DNA of 64,000 bases from Pirellulales bacterium. Its GTDB lineage: Bacteria; Planctomycetota; Planctomycetia; Pirellulales; JALHPA01. Location: positions 72,548 through 136,547 of the forward strand of contig JANRLT010000070.1 of the NCBI GenBank assembly GCA_033762255.1. The letters run 5' to 3'. The number at the start of each line of letters is the position of its first letter. Positions within the stretch are counted from its first letter, which is position 1. This document shows positions 1,760-62,836 of this stretch, piece after piece. The notes beneath the pieces were generated by a model. That model was not told the origin of the DNA, did no database searches, and worked only from the letters and a program-made list of their open reading frames with translations. Position numbers and translations under genes: made by a program.

Positions 1760-3130
1760 ATGAATCCGCTATTAGAAATCAACAACTTGACGATGAAATT
1801 CGGCGGCTTGACCGCCGTGCAGGATTTTACCTGGCAAGTTCCTGCGGGAGAAATCCGTTCGCTCATCGGTCCCAACGGCGCGGGAAAGACCACCGCCTTT
1901 AACGCGATTACCGGCATCTATGAACCGACCGCCGGACAGATTCGCTTTGCCGGGCGGACGTTGGAACTATCCCGCACGGCCTGGGTCTGGTTATGGGCCG
2001 GATTTGTCGGGCTGGTCACGGCGGTGGCGGCATTTTTGCTGATGGCGGGTCCCAATGAATTATGGCGTACGGCGGTTTACAAAATCTTTCAAGAGCAGCA
2101 AGGCTTGATAGAAGATGCAAAGGAAGCCGCAGCCGCTCCCTCTCCGATGATGGATGATGCCGCGCCAGGCAATGCCGTGCCTCCCGCTCAGATACCCCTT
2201 TTGCCCTGGAGTAAAGTCCGCGCGGCAATATACGACCATTTATGGGGGACGGGATTGCGAATCGACAAGCGTTCTTCCAAGAATTTTCGGATTGTCAACC
2301 AGGAAGACGAACAACTAGGCCGGGCCAGAACCTCCGAGGATGCCGCGGAGCTCTTGGCGACGTTGAATCAGATCATGGCCAGTGGCGTGGCCGACGGTTT
2401 GGACAAGCTCCGCGAAGACTCGCGGTTTCGGTCAATTGTGGAGGACGACACAAAATTACGTGAACAAGCGGCCAAAAACCGCCAGCGGGCCTGGTGGTTG
2501 TGGGGAGGGACCGCCACGGGTTTTGTATTGGGATTTTTAGGAGCTTTCACCGTCTGGAATAATAGCCGTCGCACACCGGACATCATTGGGAGCCGCGGGT
2601 TGGCCCGCACCTTTCAAAATATCCGCCTGTTTCGCGAAATGACCGTGCTAGAAAATGTGCTGGTCGGCGGCGACCGGCATATTGGCGGGACGCTGGCGGG
2701 AATGTTTTTGCACACACCCGGCCAGCAACGACAGGAACGCGCCGCCGCCGCCACGGCACGGGAAATATTGGAATTTGTCGGCTTAGGCCACCGCGCGAAT
2801 CGACTGGCGGGTTCGCTCCCTTATGGGGACCAGCGACGGCTGGAAATCGCCCGGGCCCTGGCAACCAAACCGCAATTACTGCTGTTGGACGAACCCGGCG
2901 CTGGAATGAACCCCAGCGAGACGGCTGATTTGATAGAGCTGATCCGCCGCATTCGTCAACGCGGGGTGACAGTGCTACTGATCGAGCATCACATGAATGT
3001 GGTCATGGGTATTAGCGACCAGATCGCCGTACTCGATTATGGGCAAAAGATCGCCGCCGGGACCCCGGCCGAAATCCGCGCCAACCCCCGCGTGATCGAG
3101 GCGTACTTAGGGAAGGAAGAAGCGGGATAG
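1760..3130 (+). CDS. livG: LivG-type ABC ATPase with a two-helix membrane insertion
   Basis: ATP-binding subunit of the Liv transporter, but 456 residues instead of the usual 255 or so. The ATPase is complete: Walker A GPNGAGKTT (residues 37-45), Q-loop RTFQN (Q286), signature LPYGDQ (353-358), Walker B LLLLDEP (373-379), H-loop His410. Between residues about 71 and 273, exactly between Walker A and the Q-loop, lies an extra block: a hydrophobic segment at 75-96, a soluble stretch of about 145 residues rich in Ala, Asp, Glu and Arg, and a second hydrophobic segment at 245-266. Standard LivG continues directly from the Walker A subdomain into the sequence resembling 274-290. The reading frame is uninterrupted. 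If both segments span the membrane, the insert would sit outside the cytoplasm. Its function is unknown. Confidence 0.9.
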   Translation: MNPLLEINNLTMKFGGLTAVQDFTWQVPAGEIRSLIGPNGAGKTTAFNAITGIYEPTAGQIRFAGRTLELSRTAWVWLWAGFVGLVTAVAAFLLMAGPNELWRTAVYKIFQEQQGLIEDAKEAAAAPSPMMDDAAPGNAVPPAQIPLLPWSKVRAAIYDHLWGTGLRIDKRSSKNFRIVNQEDEQLGRARTSEDAAELLATLNQIMASGVADGLDKLREDSRFRSIVEDDTKLREQAAKNRQRAWWLWGGTATGFVLGFLGAFTVWNNSRRTPDIIGSRGLARTFQNIRLFREMTVLENVLVGGDRHIGGTLAGMFLHTPGQQRQERAAAATAREILEFVGLGHRANRLAGSLPYGDQRRLEIARALATKPQLLLLDEPGAGMNPSETADLIELIRRIRQRGVTVLLIEHHMNVVMGISDQIAVLDYGQKIAAGTPAEIRANPRVIEAYLGKEEAG

Positions 3131-3132
3131 TT

Positions 3133-3240
3133 AATTACAAATTACAAATTACAAATTACGAATTAAATACGGCCTTTCCCCTCATTCCTGACCCCTAATC
3201 ACTGTCCCCTGACCCCTCGCCCCTATCCCCTGCCCCCTAA
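3133..3240 (+). repeat. Two adjoining heptanucleotide tandem arrays between livG and livF
   Basis: The livG-livF gap is made almost entirely of 7-base units. Positions 3133-3165 hold four copies of AATTACA (the last is AATTACG) plus a partial fifth. Positions 3178-3240 hold nine consecutive heptamers in one register, seven of them CCCCTNN with variable last bases, ending three bases before the livF ATG. The units resemble heptameric STRR repeats of cyanobacteria. Whether they affect livF translation is not known. Confidence 0.85.
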
Positions 3241-3243
3241 CTC

Positions 3244-3954
3244 ATGCCATTGCTCTCGCTCACGAACGTCTCCGCTGGCTACGGCCCGATTCGAGCCTTG
3301 GCGGGGATTTCGTTGACGGTCGAGCCGGGCGAAATTGTTACGATCATTGGCGCGAATGGCGCGGGAAAAAGCAGCACTTTGCGCTGTATCTCGGGCATTA
3401 TCCGCCCCACCGCGGGGACGATCCATTTTCAAGGCCAACCCATACATGCCCAACCGGCCAATCAGATCGTCCGGTTGGGTCTCTGCCAGTCACCGGAGGG
3501 ACGGCAGATTTTTCCCCGCTTAACCGTTCGCGAAAATCTAGAGATGGGGGCATTTACCCGCGCGGATGCCCGCAATGTACAGGCTGACCTGACAAAAATG
3601 TATCAGCTATTTCCCATTTTGCGGGAACGCGCGACGCAACTGGGAGGCACGCTTTCCGGCGGTGAACAACAAATGCTAGCAATCGCGCGGGCTTTGATGG
3701 GCCGCCCGCAATTATTGCTCTTAGACGAGCCTTCGCTGGGTTTGGCCCCATTGATCGTGCACAAGATATTTGAGGTCATTCGCCAGTTAAATGCCGAAGG
3801 AATGGCCATTTTATTAGTGGAACAAAATGCGCGCCTGGCGCTGCGCATTGCCTCGCGTGGTTATGTGTTAGAGACCGGCCAAATTACCTTGTGCGGCCCC
3901 GCCAAAGAGCTGTTGCACGATGAGCGAATTCGAGAAGCGTATTTGGGGGGATAA
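3244..3954 (+). CDS. livF: Branched-chain amino acid ABC transporter ATP-binding protein LivF
   Basis: Second ATPase of the Liv system, 236 residues, the normal length. All motifs are present: Walker A GANGAGKSS, Q-loop CQSPEGRQIFPRLTVRENL (typical of LivF), signature LSGGEQQMLAIARAL, Walker B LLLLDEPSLGLAP and switch His region LLVEQNARLAL. It should pair with the LivG-type ATPase on the cytoplasmic face of LivH/LivM; unlike that partner it has no insertion. The start ATG lies directly after a CCCCTNN heptamer array, with no purine-rich ribosome-binding site visible, so translation may be coupled to livG or leaderless-like. Last gene of the operon. Confidence 0.95.
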   Translation: MPLLSLTNVSAGYGPIRALAGISLTVEPGEIVTIIGANGAGKSSTLRCISGIIRPTAGTIHFQGQPIHAQPANQIVRLGLCQSPEGRQIFPRLTVRENLEMGAFTRADARNVQADLTKMYQLFPILRERATQLGGTLSGGEQQMLAIARALMGRPQLLLLDEPSLGLAPLIVHKIFEVIRQLNAEGMAILLVEQNARLALRIASRGYVLETGQITLCGPAKELLHDERIREAYLGG

Positions 3955-53818: not shown

Positions 53819-54199
53819 GTGGGGTTGGGAGAAGCCGCCACGCACGCGTCAATTATTAACGGAGAGCGCAGACGTATTAGACGATGTTCTGGCACCACGA
53901 AGTGGTGTAGGATTGTAGCCGGTGGTGCCAACCTCCGGAAAGCTATCAAGGCAATAAGATAGCCGTAAACCGGTAGCGCAGAGGATTCGCCCGCGGCTCG
54001 AATTACTGCAATACCTTCGCTGCGGGTGCCAAGTAACAAGTTAAATAAGTGGCCGCTGACTGACTTGGGTTTTCCTCTTGAATCAAAAGATTGACATTTG
54101 ACATAATTTAGATATTATCAAAGTTATTCATAGTGTGTACATTAGTTCAATTCTGATTTGAAAACAATTTCAAGTCCATAAAGGATAATTGGATGAAGT
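53819..54199. other. Intergenic region with REP-like sequence and a drop in G+C
   Basis: 381 bases. CACCAC-GAA-GTGGTG (53893-53907) is a perfect hairpin, and GGCACCAC (53891-53898) can pair instead with GTGGTGCC (53922-53929), so two exclusive stems are possible. The motif GATTGTAGCCGGTGGTG resembles repeats I associate with planctomycete genomes. After about 54060 the sequence becomes A+T-rich and carries the promoter of the methylase gene, marking the edge of an acquired segment. Confidence 0.5.
54091..54118 (+). promoter_or_regulatory. Sigma-70-like promoter of the methylase-nuclease operon
   Basis: TTGACA at 54091-54096 and TATTAT at 54113-54118, 16 bases apart, about 80 bases upstream of the methyltransferase start. 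A second overlapping TTGACA begins at 54099. It is the most consensus-like promoter in the window and lies in an A+T-rich patch. Confidence 0.65.
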
Positions 54200-55429
54200 A
54201 TGGCGAAGAAAAGATCAATCACCAAACCTGGCACACGCAGCAGTGCATCCAACAATTCTAAGCATCAGGATGTTAATGCGGTCCCATCTTCATCCAAATC
54301 GCTAAACCGTAGCCTGGGTGACGCCAAGCGCGCCAAGCAGGACGAGTTCTATACACAGTACGTTGACATCCAGAAGGAAGTCGAAGCCTATCTCGAGTTC
54401 AACCCTGACACTTTCAGAGACAAAATCGTCTACTGCAACTGTGACGACCCATTCGAGAGCAACTTCTTCAAGTACTTCGCGGCTAACTTCAACAAGCTCG
54501 GCCTCAAGAAACTAATCACCACCAGCTACGATGGTTCTCCCATCGCCGGACAGGGCCTTTTGTTCCCGGAATATGATCAGGGTGATAACACGCGCCCACG
54601 GCCACACTCGATCGCCATCGCCGTAGAGATCGAGGAAGTGACCGACCTCAATGGCGATGGCGCTACGGGTATAGACGATGTAAAGCTCTTTTTGGAGCGA
54701 AATGCCCACAGCCGCACCCCCCTTAAGGGCGGGGGTGACTTCCGCAGCGCTGAATGTGTCGAATTGCTCAAACAGGCGGACATCGTTGTCACCAACCCGC
54801 CGTTCTCGCTATTTCGGGAGTATGTGGCGCAGCTTGTGGAGCATAGAAAGAAGTTCCTAATCATCGGAAATCAGAACGCCATAACATACAAGGAAATCTT
54901 CCCTCTCATTAAGGAAAACAAGTTGTGGCTTGGAGTCGACAACGGGGGTACGAAGTGGTTTCAAGTGAAAGAAGACTACGATATACAGACTGAATCTCGT
55001 AAGAAGATTGTGAACGGTGTTAAATACTTCAGCATGGGAAGCATCGTGTGGTTCACTAATTTGGACCACGGTCGGCGTCATCAAAGGCTGCCACTCATGA
55101 CCACGACTGAGAATTTAAAGTTTAGTCGGAATATCAAAGGCAAAGCCGCTTACGATCGATACGACAATTACGAGGCGATCGAGGTTCCATCCTTTAGAGA
55201 GATCCCCAGCGATTACGACGGTGTAATGGGTGTTCCAATCACATTCCTCGACAAATATAACCCTGAGCAATTCGAAATCATTGGGGCAACCGAAAGCGAA
55301 GGCAAAGGATTTTCAAATGGACTGTGGCTAGGAAATACGGCACAAGCCTTAGTCAAGGGCGAGAGAGTCTATAAACGACTATTCATCAGACATCGCAACT
55401 TGTCCACCAAGGGGTTGAAGAAAAAGTGA
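54200..55429 (+). CDS. EcoRI-family adenine-specific DNA methyltransferase
   Basis: 409-residue SAM-dependent N6-adenine methyltransferase of the EcoRI methylase family. After a Ser/Lys/Asn-rich disordered N-terminus of about 45 residues come [40 protein letters not shown] and the catalytic NPPF (residues 199-202) in [27 protein letters not shown] and [16 protein letters not shown] are typical of the family. In EcoRI systems the partner is a restriction nuclease; here the next gene, overlapping by 4 bases, is a DUF262-HNH protein. Codon use and composition differ from the chromosomal neighbours, suggesting horizontal transfer. Confidence 0.92.
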
Positions 55430-56592
55430 AAACCACGCTGCAAACCGACATCACTGTCGCCAAAATCTGCGAAGGCTTCGTCTACAACCAACTGGAAGGC
55501 AAGGGCCTGTTCGGCCTTGGCGGAAAGCTTACGATTCAGCCAGAGTACCAGCGCAACTATATCTACGCCGACGGTGGAGGCAAGAAAGAGCAGGGGGTCA
55601 TCGAATCGATATTGAAGGGGTATCCGCTGGGGCTGATATACTTCAACAAGGTGGCAGCGGACAAGTTCGAGGTGCTCGACGGCCAGCAGCGCATCACCAG
55701 CATAGGGCGGTTCGTTACCGACAAGTTTGCGATCATGGAGAACGCAAATCCTAAGATTTTCAGCAGCCTGCCCTCCGATCAGCAGAAGAGGATTCGCGAC
55801 TCAAAGCTGCTGATCTATGAATGCGAGGGGACTGAGACAGAGATCAAGGAGTGGTTTAAGACAATCAACATTGCTGGCGTGCCGCTGAATGAACAAGAAT
55901 TGCTCAACGCAGTCTATTCTGGCCCATTTGTCACCAAGGCCAAAGAAGAGTTCAGTAACAGTCAGAACGCGAATATCTTGAAGTGGAGCGCGTACATCAA
56001 GGGTAGCGCGAACCGGCAGGAGTTTCTTGAGCAGGCGCTGGAGTGGGTGAGTAAGGGGAACATCGGCGCGTACATGAGCGCGCATCGTAATCAGAAGAAC
56101 ATCAACGAATTAAAAACTTACTTCAATGCGGTGATTGATTGGGTTTCGACGGTGTTCAACGAAGTGCGTTCAGAGATGCGCGGCTTGGAATGGGGCCGGC
56201 TTTACGAAACTTATCACCACCAGAGCTACAATCCTGCGAAGGTCGAGGCCGCCGTCGAAAAACTTATGGCCGATGAATACGTCAGCAACCGCAAAGGAAT
56301 TTTCGAATATGTGTTGGGCGGATCAACCGACAAGAAGCTCCTCGCCGTCCGCGTGTTCGACGAGAAGACGAAGAAGGTTGCGTACACCAAGCAGACACAG
56401 GAGGTGAAGGGGAAGAATAAATCAAACTGCCCACTGTGCGCCGTGAGCGACAATGCGAACAAAGCAAGAATCTATGATTTTGAAGAGATGGACGCGGACC
56501 ACGTATCGGCGTGGAGTAAAGGGGGCGAAAGTTCGGCTAAGAACTGCGAGATGCTTTGCACCACCCATAATCGTGCCAAAGGTAATCGATAA
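55426..56592 (+). CDS. DUF262-HNH endonuclease, probable restriction partner
   Basis: 388 residues from a GTG that overlaps the methylase stop by 4 bases. The N-terminal half is a DUF262 (GmrSD-N-like) domain with [10 protein letters not shown] and the NTP-binding motif DGQQR (residues 85-89). The C-terminal 54 residues are an HNH nuclease: CPLC (335-338), the catalytic DADH (356-359), NCEML-C and CTTHN (378-382). DUF262 proteins with nuclease domains act in anti-phage defence (GmrSD, SspE, BrxU), where the domain couples nucleotide hydrolysis to DNA cutting. Coupling with an EcoRI-type methylase suggests a self/non-self pair. Target sequence unknown. Confidence 0.85.
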
Positions 56593-56689
56593 TCTGAGTG
56601 TATTATATCCAGCTTCTACTAGCCAAGAAAATATTTTATCCTGGGCCATGTAGCCACTTCATCCAATCCCAAAGCACAGATTTCAAATC

Positions 56690-56724
56690 ATCACTCATCA
56701 CTCATCATTCATCATTCATCATTC
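56690..56724 (+). repeat. Heptanucleotide array (ATCAYTC)5
   Basis: Five consecutive 7-base units: ATCACTC twice, then ATCATTC three times, ending four bases before the stop of the convergent aminotransferase gene. Same period as the arrays at 3133-3240, 58642-58690 and 58864-58898, but a different unit. Confidence 0.85.
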
Positions 56725-56728
56725 TCAC

Positions 56729-57988
56729 CTACTCTCCCTGATTCGCTCCCACGCTGGCCGCTTTTTCCCCCAGCAGGCACCGGCCGATTTGCCGCGCCGC
56801 CTGGCGTAGGCGGTTTTCGTTTTCCACCAGGGCCAACCGCAAATAGCCCTCGCCCGCCGGGCCAAAGCCGCTTCCCGGGCTGACGGCGACGTGGCCTTCG
56901 TCGAGTAGCTTGCCAGCGAAGTCCATCGTGTTCATCTGCGACGCCCAGGGCTCGGGGACTTTGGCCCAAATAAACATTCCCGCGCGGGGGAGGTTGATCT
57001 CCCAACCGTGGCGGCGGAGGCCGTCGGCCAGGACATCGCGGCGGTGCTGGTAGATTTTACTTTGGCCTTCGACGGCGGCATCGGTATGCCGCAGCGCGAC
57101 GATGGCGGCGATTTGAATGGCGGTGAACATGCCGTAGTCGTAATAGGTTTTGATGGTCCCCAGGGCGCGGACCATTTCGGCATTGCCGCTGCAAAAGCCG
57201 ACCCGCCAGCCCGCCATGTTGTACCCTTTGCTCATGGTGGTAAATTCCACGCCTACATCCTTGGCCCCCGGCGCGGAAAGGAAACTCGGCGGCTGGTACC
57301 CATCAAACGCGACGTCCCCATAGGCAAAGTCGCTAATCACCATAAAGCCGTACTTTTTTGCCAGTCGCACCACATCCACAAAAAATTCCGGCTCGACCGT
57401 CACGGCCGAGGGATTGTGCGGATAGTTCACAATCAGCAGTTTGGGCTTGGGATACAGATGCTCGCAGGTGTAGGCGATATTTGAGAGAAACTTTTCGCTG
57501 TCGGAGACTTCCAGCGTGATCGCATGCGCCCCGGCTAGATTCACGCCATGCACATGCACCGGAAAGAACGGCGCGGGGACAATGGCCGTATCTCCCGGCC
57601 CTAGCAGCGCGAGCAGCATGTGGCTAAAGCCCTCTTTGCTCCCCAGGCAGACCACGGTCTCGGACTCGGGATCGAGCCGCACGCCATACTTGCGGGCGTA
57701 CTTGGCGGCGACTTCGCGGCGCAGGTTTTGAATTCCCAGGGCCTTGCTATAGCCGTGGTTTTTTGGGTCGCGGACCGCTTCGATCAGTTTCTCCACGACC
57801 AGGTCCTGCGGGGGGTCGCTGGGGTTTCCCATCCCCAGGTCGATCACGTCCAGCCCATCGCGCCGCATTTGATATTTTTTGGCATTGATGCGGGCAAACA
57901 GATACGGCGGCAGCCGCTTGACACGGTCGGCCACCTCAATTTTAAAGGGGCGGATGTCGTCGCGGGGGTTGTCGGTGCGTTGATCCAT
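56729..57988 (-). CDS. PLP-dependent aminotransferase, AlaC/LL-DAP aminotransferase-like
   Basis: 419 residues from the ATG at 57986-57988 ([15 protein letters not shown]). Fold-type I aminotransferase. Motifs: [20 protein letters not shown] at the N-terminus, [53 protein letters not shown], and the PLP Lys in [16 protein letters not shown]. The GMGNP motif and the whole plan match E. coli AlaC (glutamate-pyruvate aminotransferase) and related LL-diaminopimelate aminotransferases, so the exact substrate is open. It is convergent with the restriction operon, and a heptamer array lies directly after its stop. Confidence 0.88.
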
Positions 57989-58316
57989 AAAAAACAAAGT
58001 AAGAAGGCGGAATTCAGAATGCAAATATTACTAGCTGCGACGTTTGGCAACTGACCGGCACCCTTTAAGATAGCGAATTTGCGGGAGTTCGTGAATTGCA
58101 GGAGCAGCGGGGAATTTTTGCGGGGAAAACGACTCAAATGACTCGCGGTACCCGGTTTGCCGCAGACACGGATACCCCTGGCCAGGTTCAGGCCTGTAGT
58201 TTGCCCAGTTTGCCAGATGTCGGACAATATGCCCAATTCCCCGCTAGCGGGTCACCTTTGGCGGTTTTGCCGCCGATAGGATCAATATCGATCAATTTTG
58301 GCCTGGGAGGTGTGAA
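57989..58316. other. Divergent intergenic region
   Basis: 328 bases between the aminotransferase and a small secreted protein. A self-complementary GATCAATATCGATC lies at about 58277-58290, and GGGAGGTG just before the 58317 start is a good ribosome site. No gene is supported. Confidence 0.4.
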
Positions 58317-58631
58317 ATGACCCGTAATATCCTGTTGGCGGGCGGAATCTTGGTGTTATTAGCCCTTGCTCCCGTGTCTGCCCTATTTGCCGGGCAGCCG
58401 CTGGTCCGGCTCGAGACCAAATTGCGTTCCCACGTGCCGCAACCCCCCGCCGCGGCGCAGCCAGTTACGCCCGCGCCGCAGTATATGCTGCTACAGGGCG
58501 CTCCCGGCGGGAATGGTCAAACCGTGCGGGCGACGCCGTACGCCTATGGCTGGTTCGGCGTGGGCCGCCGCTCGCATTATGAATACAGCCGGGGGTACTA
58601 TGGGCAGACAAATTTTTGGCACGCCCGGTGA
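58317..58631 (+). CDS. Small secreted protein
   Basis: 104 residues. A signal peptide (MTRNILLAGGILVLLALAPV, cleaved near LFAG) is followed by a Pro/Ala/Gln-rich stretch and a Tyr/Arg/Gly-rich end (YAYGWFGVGRRSHYEYSRGY, then YGQTNFWH). GGGAGGTG precedes the ATG. No function is known to me; the Tyr/Gly/Arg-rich end resembles small secreted proteins frequent in planctomycetes. It could be a structural envelope component. Confidence 0.65.
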   Translation: MTRNILLAGGILVLLALAPVSALFAGQPLVRLETKLRSHVPQPPAAAQPVTPAPQYMLLQGAPGGNGQTVRATPYAYGWFGVGRRSHYEYSRGYYGQTNFWHAR

Positions 58632-58641
58632 GGTGGGGGTT

Positions 58642-58690
58642 GGAGTTTGGAGGATGGAGTTTAGAGGATGGAGTTTAGAGGATGGAGATA
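58642..58690 (+). repeat. Heptanucleotide array (GGAGTTT/AGAGGAT)
   Basis: Seven consecutive 7-base units starting 10 bases after the small secreted gene: GGAGTTT GGAGGAT, then GGAGTTT AGAGGAT twice, then GGAGATA. Two alternating unit types give an apparent 14-base period. Confidence 0.85.
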
Positions 58691-58760
58691 AGCATTGGAT
58701 TCTCGCAAAGCTACTGTTAAATCGAGCGAAGCACCCCAGGACCCCTGCACCTCCGCAAGC

Positions 58761-58851
58761 GGCGTCCCTTGCTGACGCTGCGGGCTGATTGGTTTCTTCA
58801 CAGGGGACTGTGAAGACTACACTGGTGTCCCTTGCTGACGCGGCAAGCTGA
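58761..58851 (-). repeat. Dispersed repeat, copy 2 (inverted relative to copy 1)
   Basis: Its reverse complement has the same layout as 50500-50592: a GC(C/A)GCGTCAGCAAGGGA-type unit, a hairpin TCTTCACAG/CTGTGAAGA, and a second CCCGCAGCGTCAGCAAGGGA unit. It lies between the convergent small secreted gene and the Omp85 gene. Confidence 0.75.
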
Positions 58852-58863
58852 AACTCTGCCTTC

Positions 58864-58898
58864 AATTCTTAATTCATAATTCTTAATTCATAATTAAC
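58864..58898 (-). repeat. Heptanucleotide array (AATTCWT)
   Basis: Five 7-base units, AATTCTT AATTCAT AATTCTT AATTCAT AATTAAC, ending two bases before the stop of the Omp85 gene. Compare AATTACA units at 3133-3165. Confidence 0.85.
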
Positions 58899-58900
58899 AG

Positions 58901-61900
58901 CTACCTTCCCAGACCGACAAAGAATGTAAAGACCTGGGTTTGATCCCCGGCGGCGTCGTTGACGACCGTGGCAAAGTCCAGCGCGATCGGGGCGGGGCCT
59001 AGCGCCGGGACGGAAATTCTTAGCCCACCCCCCAGGGCGACGCGAAAGTTCTGGGAATTGATCGTGTAATCCTGCTCGACCGTGCCAAAGTCACAAAACG
59101 CCACCGCCCGCAAGGAATCATCGGCAGTGATTGGGACCATGTATTCCACCGTGCCGACCAGTTGCAGCGGCCCACCGACAATCACGTCGTTAACCCGCGG
59201 CGAGGCCCCGCGAAAGCGAAACCCGCGGAGTGTCGAAAAACCCCCGATAAAAAAGTTGTCGTAAATCGGCGTGTCATTTCCCGAGATTCCAAAGTCCCCG
59301 CCAATCGCCAGCACCTGACGGCCCGATCCATCCGCCCGCTGTGTCAGCGTAAAATATTTGCGCATTTCGACCGTTGCCCGCGGGTAATCAAATGACCCGG
59401 TCACGTACTCTACCTCATACTGGGCGAACCATCCTTCCGTGGGTAAAAACGGGCTATCACGCGTATCATGGGCCAGATTGATCCCAAAGCCGTATAGGTC
59501 ATTATGGCCGACGACTTCATTCAGTTCCGGAACCGTCGTGACGCGCGGGTTGGAAATGTTAATGTTTTCGATCCGAAATTTGGTGCCGATGGACAAATCC
59601 GGGCGGTAGGGAATCTGATAAGCAAAGCCAAATCGCCCCCCCACGCGTTCTTCGTACCAGTCGCGATAGCCGCGCTGAAAGTAAAAGCCGCTCATGGAGA
59701 GCGCTACCGGCGAATCCCACAGATAAGGCTCTTGAAAGCTGATGGTATAGCGGCTGACTTGACTGCCGGGAGCGGCCTCGAGGCGAAAGCGCTGTCCCGC
59801 GCCGCGCCATGCCCGGCCCGAGACAAAATCGTTCCAACTAGTGGCGGGACGCCAAATGTCAAAGTTTTGCTCGTCCAGCACGATATTGCCAATGACACCC
59901 GCATTGGAATTCACGCCCACGCCAAACATTAGCCGGCCGGTCTGGGTTTCGGTGACGATTCCCGTTAAATCGACAAACCCGCCTTCTGGAACCACTTGCC
60001 AGGGTTGTTGGGGATTGATTGGTTCGCTCGGCTGGGGCAGAATCCCCGCCCCCTGGCCTGGCACCCCATTTGGTTGTCCTATGCCGCCGACAAGTGGTTG
60101 GCCGTTGGCATTAATGGCCGGGGACCAGGGACTGGCGCTAGGGTCGGTGGGGGCAATGCCGCTGGGGGCCACTGCGGTTCCCGGGGCATAGCCCGGCACG
60201 GTCAGGTTGCCTCCGGAGGGCTGCCCGACAAAGCTTTCAGTCGCGGGATCGGCTAAGTACTGCGTAGGCTGAACAGGATATTGTCCTGTGGTATTTGTCG
60301 CGGCGGTGTAAAACGCGGGCTGCGCCGCATAACCGGTGGTTGATCCCGCCTGGGGGTAAGCATCGGGCATAATGCCACTGGGGGTAAAGCCAGTTGCGGA
60401 TTGCTGGTATGGCATACTACCGCTGGCTACATAATTGGCATTGGGTGTGGCGGGGGTGCTCCAGCGATCCACACCGACAGTGCTACTGGGAATATAGGCG
60501 TTACTGGGAACGTAAGCGGTGCTAGGGCTGGCAGGGGGGATACCGCTGTTGGTACTTGCCGGAGTAGTGGAATTTGCGGCCCAGCGTGTGTTGTCTGGAC
60601 TTTGAAAGCGAACGACAGTTTGTGTCGGGGGCGTGACCGTGCGCTGGAGCGCGGTATCCGGCACGGTAAAGTCCCGATTGATCCGAGGGCGGTCAGGATG
60701 GAGTGCCGCGGAAGGAGCGAGCGGGGTCATTGCCGATGGGCGCGGGGTGGATTCCGCCGGCGTGTAATTTGCCCGCCAAAACGTGGGCCGACTGGTAGGA
60801 TGCGATGCCGCGGGGGAGGGAGTAGCGGTGCTAGGAGCGGCGGGAATAGGAGCGGCATCGTTCGGCGTTACGGGATAGGGGACTGCCTCTAGCGGGAGAT
60901 TGTGATATGGTAGTCGCAGTTCTGGTTGCGCTGGTGGGTTGACCGTGGCGGGGGGCGTGCCGGGAACAGCATCCACGGCGGTCCCGCGAATGATCACCGT
61001 AACGGTGGGAACGTCCGGGCTTTGAAATCGGGATTTGCCGTTGCGATTGGTCGAGGTGTTTTTGCGGGCGAGTTCGCGTGCTTCCTCGTCCAAGCCCTCG
61101 GGGGGCGTTACCACGATTTGCGGCGGGGCGCCCTTGGTCGGATCGTTATTAAACAGGCCGCTCCGTTTCAGGCGAATTTCGTCCGCGCGAATGAGCCGCG
61201 TATCGACGATATCCCCCGGCCGCAGCGAAATCCGGTTGAGCACCGTGCGCTCGCGCGAGTGGGAGGATTCTCCCGACGAGCCGCGAATATCGACCAAAAT
61301 CTGGCCAACGCGGTAAACGGCCCCTTCCTTGATGCTAAAGACAATGTCCAGCTCGCCCGGTGTTTCCAAAAAACGCGTCTCGGCGTCGATATCGCAAAAG
61401 ATGTGCCCCTGTCCGCCGTACAAATCGCGAATGGCGTTAATGTCGGCGTTCAGCTTGGCCTGGTCAAAGTACTCGCCGCTTTGTTCCTGCAATTTGGAGA
61501 GCAATTCGGCTTGATTGAATTTTTCGTTGCCAATCACCGAGAAATTTCGCACTTTATAGCGCGGGCCTTCGTGGATGATAAACGTCAGCGTGAGCCAGCC
61601 GCTGGGGCTGACATCTAGCTCGCGGCTGATCCGCGCCTGAAAGAAGCCCAAGCTGCGGTAGTACTCGGTCAGGGTCTTGATATCGTCGTCAATCTTGTTG
61701 CGATCGACATGCCCGCCAATCCAAAGGATGCCAGGCTTGGACTGGATTTGCGTATTCAGCCGGGCGTCGGTGGCGATGGTGTTCCCCACGTACTGCGTCC
61801 ACCACACCTTTTGGCGGTTCCCCTCGTTTATGACAAAGACCGCCCCTTTGTCGCCGACTTTGTTTCCCTCCACCACGCTCACGTACGCCTCGACAAAACC

Positions 61901-62527
61901 TTTTTCGTGGTAGTAATTTTCCAGGGTGCGGCGGGCTTCCTCCACCCGATGCGGATCAAGCGCGTCCCCCACTTTAAGCTCGGCTTGCTTTTTAAGCGTG
62001 CTTTCACCGATCTTTTGCATACCGATGAATTTTACATAGCGCAAGAGAGGCCGCTCCACCACCTGAAAGGTCACCAGCAGACCATCTTGCAGGGTTTGGT
62101 AACGGGGCTTGATCGAAACAAATTTTCGCGTCCGGTCCAGTGCCCGTACGTCATCCTCGATCGTCTTGGGATCGTACAGCGTCCCCGCCCGGGTGGACAT
62201 CTTGGGTAGGGTGCCCACATTGCTGGCCCCTTCGATGCGGACCTCGATCACGCGGTCGGTTCCGGCAATGGGGGCCGGGACGGCGTTGGCGGCGGCATTA
62301 CCGCCAGGCGCAGCGCGCGGCGTGGCGATGGTCTCCACCGGAGGGGGCAAATTTGCCGGAAACGTCCCGGCGGGTGACCCAACGGCGGTCCCCGCCGCGG
62401 GGTTGGTCAATGCCGGGCCGCTGCCGGCCAATCCCTGGCCGCTGGCGAAATTTATTTGGCATCCAAGCGCAAACCAGCTTAAAGCCAGCAGGCCCAGTGC
62501 TTTGCCATGACGCATCATGCCCAGCAT
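58901..62527 (-). CDS. bamA: BamA-like Omp85 outer-membrane protein with a long disordered insert
   Basis: About 1208 residues from the ATG at 62525-62527; ATGs further upstream (to 62830) are in frame but give no better start, while MRHGKALGLLALSWFALG resembles a signal peptide. Several POTRA repeats occupy roughly 62250-61070 (VIEVRIEGASNVG; PLLRYVKFIGMQKIGESTLK; YKVRNFSVIGNEKFNQAELL; YRVGQILVDIRG). The C-terminus is an Omp85 beta-barrel with the LRGFRFRGASP motif and VEYMVPI. Between the last POTRA and the barrel lies a Pro/Ser/Thr/Ala-rich insert of about 320 residues (roughly 60000-60960) that ordinary BamA (about 800 residues) lacks. The protein should assemble or transport outer-membrane proteins. 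Confidence 0.88.
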   Translation of the reverse strand: MLGMMRHGKALGLLALSWFALGCQINFASGQGLAGSGPALTNPAAGTAVGSPAGTFPANLPPPVETIATPRAAPGGNAAANAVPAPIAGTDRVIEVRIEGASNVGTLPKMSTRAGTLYDPKTIEDDVRALDRTRKFVSIKPRYQTLQDGLLVTFQVVERPLLRYVKFIGMQKIGESTLKKQAELKVGDALDPHRVEEARRTLENYYHEKGFVEAYVSVVEGNKVGDKGAVFVINEGNRQKVWWTQYVGNTIATDARLNTQIQSKPGILWIGGHVDRNKIDDDIKTLTEYYRSLGFFQARISRELDVSPSGWLTLTFIIHEGPRYKVRNFSVIGNEKFNQAELLSKLQEQSGEYFDQAKLNADINAIRDLYGGQGHIFCDIDAETRFLETPGELDIVFSIKEGAVYRVGQILVDIRGSSGESSHSRERTVLNRISLRPGDIVDTRLIRADEIRLKRSGLFNNDPTKGAPPQIVVTPPEGLDEEARELARKNTSTNRNGKSRFQSPDVPTVTVIIRGTAVDAVPGTPPATVNPPAQPELRLPYHNLPLEAVPYPVTPNDAAPIPAAPSTATPSPAASHPTSRPTFWRANYTPAESTPRPSAMTPLAPSAALHPDRPRINRDFTVPDTALQRTVTPPTQTVVRFQSPDNTRWAANSTTPASTNSGIPPASPSTAYVPSNAYIPSSTVGVDRWSTPATPNANYVASGSMPYQQSATGFTPSGIMPDAYPQAGSTTGYAAQPAFYTAATNTTGQYPVQPTQYLADPATESFVGQPSGGNLTVPGYAPGTAVAPSGIAPTDPSASPWSPAINANGQPLVGGIGQPNGVPGQGAGILPQPSEPINPQQPWQVVPEGGFVDLTGIVTETQTGRLMFGVGVNSNAGVIGNIVLDEQNFDIWRPATSWNDFVSGRAWRGAGQRFRLEAAPGSQVSRYTISFQEPYLWDSPVALSMSGFYFQRGYRDWYEERVGGRFGFAYQIPYRPDLSIGTKFRIENINISNPRVTTVPELNEVVGHNDLYGFGINLAHDTRDSPFLPTEGWFAQYEVEYVTGSFDYPRATVEMRKYFTLTQRADGSGRQVLAIGGDFGISGNDTPIYDNFFIGGFSTLRGFRFRGASPRVNDVIVGGPLQLVGTVEYMVPITADDSLRAVAFCDFGTVEQDYTINSQNFRVALGGGLRISVPALGPAPIALDFATVVNDAAGDQTQVFTFFVGLGR

Positions 62528-62836
62528 CCGTTTCTGTAGTTGCGGGAAAGCGGCTATAGCAACCGCGAAAAGTCCCGTGCGCAAAAAAACCATTACAAAA
62601 CTTGGCCGCTTGCTTTCCCGGGGTTCAAGCGGACAATGTGGTCGAAAAGAAATACCGCAACCCGTCAATTGCGACAAGGGAGATTTGGGGGGTTGCCGAT
62701 AGTCATTTAAGAAATATTGTAAAATTACAATAAATTCATTTAGGTTCGGTCCGCCTCCCTGGGGAAATATATTCGCAAAAAAGCAACTCGCGGGATCTCC
62801 CATCAACACGCGGGTGGACGGGCAGAGCATGGCCGC
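62528..62836. other. Region upstream of the Omp85 gene
   Basis: 309 bases, or fewer if the Omp85 start is further upstream (its frame is open to 62830). An A+T-rich patch at 62700-62740 could hold the promoter. No other gene is supported. Confidence 0.4.

Follow-up and report, generated by a model that had tools for sequence, protein, structure and literature searches.

Heptad repeats scattered among bacteria form a known, unexplained class, to which the arrays analysed here, from the genome of a Pirellulales bacterium, belong. Within this class, cyanobacterial STRRs are heptanucleotide short tandemly repeated repetitive sequences. Rehm et al. 2015 (PMC4692102) describe the heptads GGGAATC in Xanthomonas and GGGGAYT in Anabaena/Nostoc, and give for these two quadruplex-forming G-rich words, in Xanthomonas and Anabaena, a placement and strand rule by which the 5' end of the G-rich strand lies near an ORF. 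The TAACTGA direct repeats of Beggiatoaceae (PMC4679880) consist of one word, are found mostly just upstream of start codons, and were read as a regulator site. A 2007 survey, as quoted in PMC4679880 and PMC4692102, found heptanucleotide simple repeats in general excess in prokaryotes, and the same two papers quote a polymerase-footprint hypothesis for the number seven.

Like the heptads of Rehm et al., the arrays of the window genome have a seven-base unit, are intergenic, and keep an ORF near the 5' side of the G-rich strand in any ORF orientation; unlike them, they use many words, most without G runs (GGGAGAC and GGGAACG contain such runs; AATTACR, AATTAAR, and GAATGAT do not), so that a quadruplex cannot be their common cause. 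The likeness to cyanobacterial STRRs, drawn by the original prediction from the letters of the window, proved apt: there, too, a genome carries several unrelated intergenic heptads, and both Nostoc and Planktothrix are rich in AATTACG, with hundreds of matches to three tandem copies (AATTACGx3) in Nostoc mirabile and Planktothrix genomes. The phylum is a different one, however, and AATTACG is directed inward in cyanobacterial loci (outward:inward, 10:23) but outward (leaving the gene in the 5' to 3' direction) in the window genome. The TAACTGA repeats of Beggiatoaceae are likewise intergenic heptad direct repeats that are patchy over distant lineages, although they use a single word where the window genome uses many. 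Shared with the 2007 survey, as quoted in those papers, are the period-7 excess itself and the polymerase-footprint slippage hypothesis; the spectrum, the edge placement, and the word grammar were measured here in the window genome. Searching the literature for AATTACG brought up unrelated sequence matches only.

The window, namely the whole stretch of DNA that was analysed, comprises 64,000 nucleotides (GenBank GCA_033762255.1, contig JANRLT010000070.1, positions 72,548 to 136,547), and its arrays and their neighbours are as follows.

1760-3130, plus strand: branched-chain amino acid ABC ATPase gene, adjoining the next array.
3133-3165, plus strand: AATTACA/G array of 4.7 units, beginning 2 bp past the ABC ATPase stop.
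3202-3238, G-rich strand minus: degenerate CCCCTGAC-type array (CTGTCCC/CCCTGAC), TRF period 7, score 39.
3244-3954, plus strand: ABC ATPase gene, start codon about 5 bp from the 3202-3238 array.
56688-56724, minus strand: TCATCAT/ATCAYTC array of 5.3 units (GAATGAT/GAGTGAT on the minus strand), lag-7 match 0.96.
56729-58024, minus strand: aminotransferase gene, stop 4 bp from the 56688-56724 array.
58641-58687, plus strand: 14-base unit TGGAGTTTAGAGGA made of two related heptads, 3.4 copies, TRF score 87 at period 14 and 40 at period 7.
58864-58895, minus strand: alternating AATTCTT/AATTCAT array of 4.6 units (AATTAAG/AATTATG on the minus strand).
58901-62830, minus strand: Omp85/POTRA gene, stop 5 bp from the 58864-58895 array.

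The tandem arrays named by the original prediction are real and lie far above chance: at a score of at least 11, three imperfect period-7 segments were observed in the window, all of them intergenic, against 0.08 expected from order-3 Markov shuffles, and their scores of 16, 23, and 27 compare with a top score of 12 in 60 shuffles. Their predicted placement at gene 3' ends or between genes also holds, with 3202-3238 lying shortly before a start codon. That the units measure exactly seven bases is borne out for 56688-56724 and for the period overall, but not for 58641-58687, which matches itself at 0.60 at lag 7 and at 0.91 at lag 14 and is therefore better described as a 14-base unit; the corresponding values for 58864-58898 are 0.82 and 0.86. 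The 58641-58687 array starts about 10 bp past the stop of an ORF (58317-58631, plus strand), and its intergenic status holds only if this ORF is a real gene there; a Pfam search of the 104-aa ORF gave no match. By inspection, all five window arrays are directed outward: the AATTA strand of 3133-3165 away from gene 1760-3130, the G-rich strand of 3202-3238 away from gene 3244-3954, the 56688-56724 array away from the aminotransferase gene, the G-rich strand of 58641-58687 away from the ORF, and the 58864-58895 array away from the Omp85/POTRA gene.

The window also carries a two-gene restriction-modification unit (54200-56592, plus strand), in which an EcoRI-type adenine methylase (54200-55429, PF13651) overlaps a GmrSD_N/HNH protein (55426-56592) that PADLOC calls as a type II restriction enzyme. 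The target of an EcoRI-type enzyme is GAATTC, which resembles, in letters, the GAATTAC-type heptads of the window genome.

The period spectrum covers 1.23 Mb of the window genome (G000; 5.47 Mb in 72 contigs, of which about 30% was read overall, in pieces), with long open frames taken as genes, without a trained gene finder. Perfect intergenic runs of at least 14 matching positions numbered 17 at k=7 and two at k=8, with none at k=2-6 or k=9-13, and harmonics of seven contributed eight, four, and nine runs at k=14, 21, and 28, respectively; coding DNA of the same 1.23 Mb held no perfect period-7 run of this length. Imperfect arrays with a score of at least 12 were counted 38 times in intergenic and four times in coding DNA at k=7, compared with zero and two at k=4-6 and five and one at k=8. 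Both the excess of heptads over neighbouring periods and the confinement to intergenic DNA that characterize STRR-like repeats are therefore present, and the suggested comparison of seven with periods 5, 6, 8, and 9 came out in favour of seven rather than as a spectrum with no excess there. The excess is strong, but the word 'strict' slightly overstated it, as arrays with 8- and 16-base units also occur in small number, most of them built from related G-rich words. The 8-base-unit arrays at L023:8986-9064 and L065:8178-8207 (GTGGAGTA- and CTGCTCCC-type) use words near to heptads, and the array at L054:19587-19765 is a 16-base tandem of about 11 ACCCTGACACTGTMCT-like copies, 16 not being a multiple of seven. 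Outside arrays, weak short duplications were most in excess at 14 and clearly so at 7, with 8, 10, 15, and 16 also raised.

Arrays of the window genome crowd against gene edges: 23 of the 50 whose two neighbours are known come within 10 bp of an edge, versus 8.4 expected if placement were uniform. Stop distances are exact, and start distances are approximate because starts were taken from the longest open frame. Of 24 arrays within 10 bp of a gene, 23 have their G-rich or AATTA strand running 5' to 3' outward, beside stops as well as beside starts. Counted across entire intergenic regions, the outward:inward ratio is 26:2 for AATT words and 33:13 for G-rich words, and every region with two oppositely signed arrays (7/7) has them ordered outward from both sides. 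Near-edge polarity is 9:1 in a distant planctomycete (G203), once arrays cut at the ends of sampled segments are dropped, and G-rich words in cyanobacterial loci stand at 17:6. We rejected a general base skew of gene flanks as the source of this polarity, since array-free regions (arrays masked) have a GC skew of only 0.07-0.10 within 20 bp of an edge. The polarity rule itself is already published for the two quadruplex-forming words; what is new here is its extension to words without G runs.

About 20 distinct unit words form arrays in the window genome, nearly all at period 7, among them AATTACR, AATTAAR, GGGAGAC, TAGTGGA, GAATGAT, GGGAACG, and GGTTTTT. This variety supports the part of the proposal that takes the period as the shared element; the claim that sequence plays no role is partly wrong, as AATTACG itself recurs in ten other phyla (listed below) and the words fit a common pattern, mainly a C-poor strand. 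When 82 distinct words were aligned over phase and strand, the log-likelihood was 45.9, whereas permuted words reached 26.7 ± 3.1 and intergenic 7-mers 15.1 ± 2.4; for the 48 words left without those resembling AATTACG, it was 34.8, against 24.5 ± 3.0 (maximum of 40: 33.3) and 16.7 ± 2.7, respectively. A single strand could not serve both grammar and polarity: the best grammar strand of AATTACG is opposite to its outward strand in the window genome, and the two are therefore reported separately. Words drift by point changes along arrays in L242 and L236, neighbouring words in L242 reading AATTACG, AATGACG, and AGTGACG. Variants also alternate within arrays, as do CTTCCGT and CTCCCGT at L043:7605-7756, in a manner that looks like block duplication.

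The idea of a mechanism common to planctomycetes fared less well. Four tandem copies of AATTACN (AATTACNx4) occur in only 7 of 294 planctomycete genomes, three copies (AATTACNx3) in none of 38 relatives, and, in 318 kb from relatives of the same order (eight at 34-40 kb each), intergenic period-7 arrays were found in G009 only. The distant planctomycete G203 was sampled over 244 kb, partly picked for the presence of AATTAC arrays; of the periods from 4 to 13, only k=7 gave intergenic arrays there, 18 in number. Beyond the planctomycetes, AATTACGx4 was found in at least 116 stretches, with ten other phyla among the matches listed (Cyanobacteria, Bacteroidota with Ignavibacteria, Chloroflexota, Acidobacteriota, Verrucomicrobiota, Gammaproteobacteria, Patescibacteria, Elusimicrobia (Endomicrobium), Myxococcales, and KSB1), of which single contigs could be misassigned because many are metagenome-assembled. 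With those arrays masked, the listed loci contained 140 more arrays at k=7, and no other k between 4 and 13 exceeded 15. The period-7 habit is thus sporadic and spans phyla, and it is not a planctomycete trait.

Changes in unit number were seen in sister genomes of Nostoc only. Within the Nostoc linckia group, whose members are 94-96% identical across the query region, one array varies by whole units; two of the genomes have other sequence interrupting it, and at about 87% identity the array is missing. At a second Nostoc array, G331 and G395 differ in length by exactly 28 bases, and the sequence on either side is identical. The Chitinophaga arrays lie at the foot of near-perfect hairpins of 50-75 bp, which have several dispersed copies, and the gaps that contain them are short and empty in several sister species; at L343-L362 (G329 and G330), these intergenic stems carry heptads at the base and variable inner stems. 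Inverted partners and folds examined in the window genome revealed no hairpins of the Chitinophaga type. Dispersed palindromes (CCGCCGATRSCATCGGCGG, GTCCGCCGGACGG, and CTAGGGCAAGCGCAGCG) recur in its intergenic DNA, often beside heptad arrays (for example, L051:734-1100 and L061:12719-12890), and were not seen in the sample of order relatives.

We examined four enzymes as possible makers or permitters of the arrays and rejected each. Telomerase-like templated addition found no support, as RVT_1, the one reverse transcriptase family searched, had no match in the window genome (96.6% complete) or in G193. Ku end-joining is likewise without its protein in all seven array-bearing planctomycetes tested, Ku being present in two of five order relatives. 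The Y1 transposase of the RAYT/IS200 type is absent from the array-rich G329 and G333, and loss of MutS is contradicted by its presence in all array-bearing genomes tested. Because none of the four is both shared and distinctive, we favour an intrinsic process.

The reading we prefer, with confidence about evenly balanced, is intrinsic replication slippage in steps of seven bases, tolerated only between genes and involving no dedicated mobile element. DNA synthesis would slip by seven bases on short strand-asymmetric words, so that whole 7-base units would be gained or lost; variant words would arise by mutation and spread via block duplication within arrays; and arrays would survive only between genes, because genes would not tolerate such insertions, often ending up a few bases from a stop or start codon. 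We infer that slippage makes the step, and that the number seven reflects the length of DNA that the replicative polymerase grips, as the literature hypothesis has it; our guess for the polarity is 3'-end extension at gaps or breaks between genes. Slippage is supported by (i) the period-7 excess in intergenic DNA only, (ii) the whole-unit changes in Nostoc, (iii) the look of block duplication, (iv) the drift of words, and (v) the lack of a shared special enzyme. Against it, slippage predicts neither the outward polarity (23/24) nor the edge crowding (23/50 versus 8.4), does not by itself account for seven beating 5, 6, 8, and 9, and leaves unexplained the patchy spread among relatives that, in all but G013, carry MutS.

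The polarity is best accounted for by a rival that we regard as rather unlikely overall, namely that 3' ends at intergenic gaps or breaks are healed by extension, G-rich or C-poor heptads being added outward and the ends then joined. Telomere addition offers the analogy for such a process. It would predict that the made strand runs 5' to 3' outward on both sides, as found in each of the polarity counts above (23/24, 26:2, 33:13, and 7/7), and it would suit the different words at the two sides of one gap (3133-3238 and 58641-58895). An RVT_1-family telomerase-like enzyme and Ku joining could not be required, given that both are absent as described above, and end extension supplies no untemplated reason for a step of seven.

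Edge crowding in excess of uniform placement would also be expected if the arrays were selected RNA or DNA signals (a G-quadruplex, a terminator, or a protein-binding site), an explanation we consider improbable. The G-rich heptads of Rehm et al. 2015 (PMC4692102) form quadruplexes in vitro and follow the same placement rule, and the Chitinophaga arrays sit at the base of large intergenic hairpins. However, AATTACR, AATTAAR, and GAATGAT obey the rule without G runs, and opposite strands are transcribed at 5' and 3' edges, which is not expected of a transcript-level signal. We rejected a hairpin or terminator function in the window genome, where inverted partners are not in excess, array regions fold no better than shuffles, and an Rfam search of 54000-62000 gave no match; the patchiness among relatives also argues against selected signals.

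It is very improbable that dispersed palindromic (REP/MITE-like) elements have filled short gaps and that the arrays represent their ends, both abutting genes and facing outward, since this model, true of Chitinophaga (hairpins, dispersed copies, and empty sister gaps), fails in the window genome, where an inverted partner occurs in only 2 of 38 array regions, no more than in controls, and the two ends carry different words, and since the Y1 transposase is missing even from the hairpin-bearing Chitinophaga genome.

Set against these alternatives, seven-base slippage remains our preferred account of the step. More broadly, and only tentatively, one word-independent process, present here and there in eleven or more phyla, may write outward-polar intergenic heptads, with period, polarity, and C-poor-strand grammar as its signature and quadruplexes as incidental. 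The period spectrum of the window genome is clean, and its arrays follow the published rule of placement and polarity independently of quadruplex-forming words. Because the rule holds without such words, one explanation is weakened, and the question becomes one of replication or end extension, which is testable in culturable Nostoc or Chitinophaga species.
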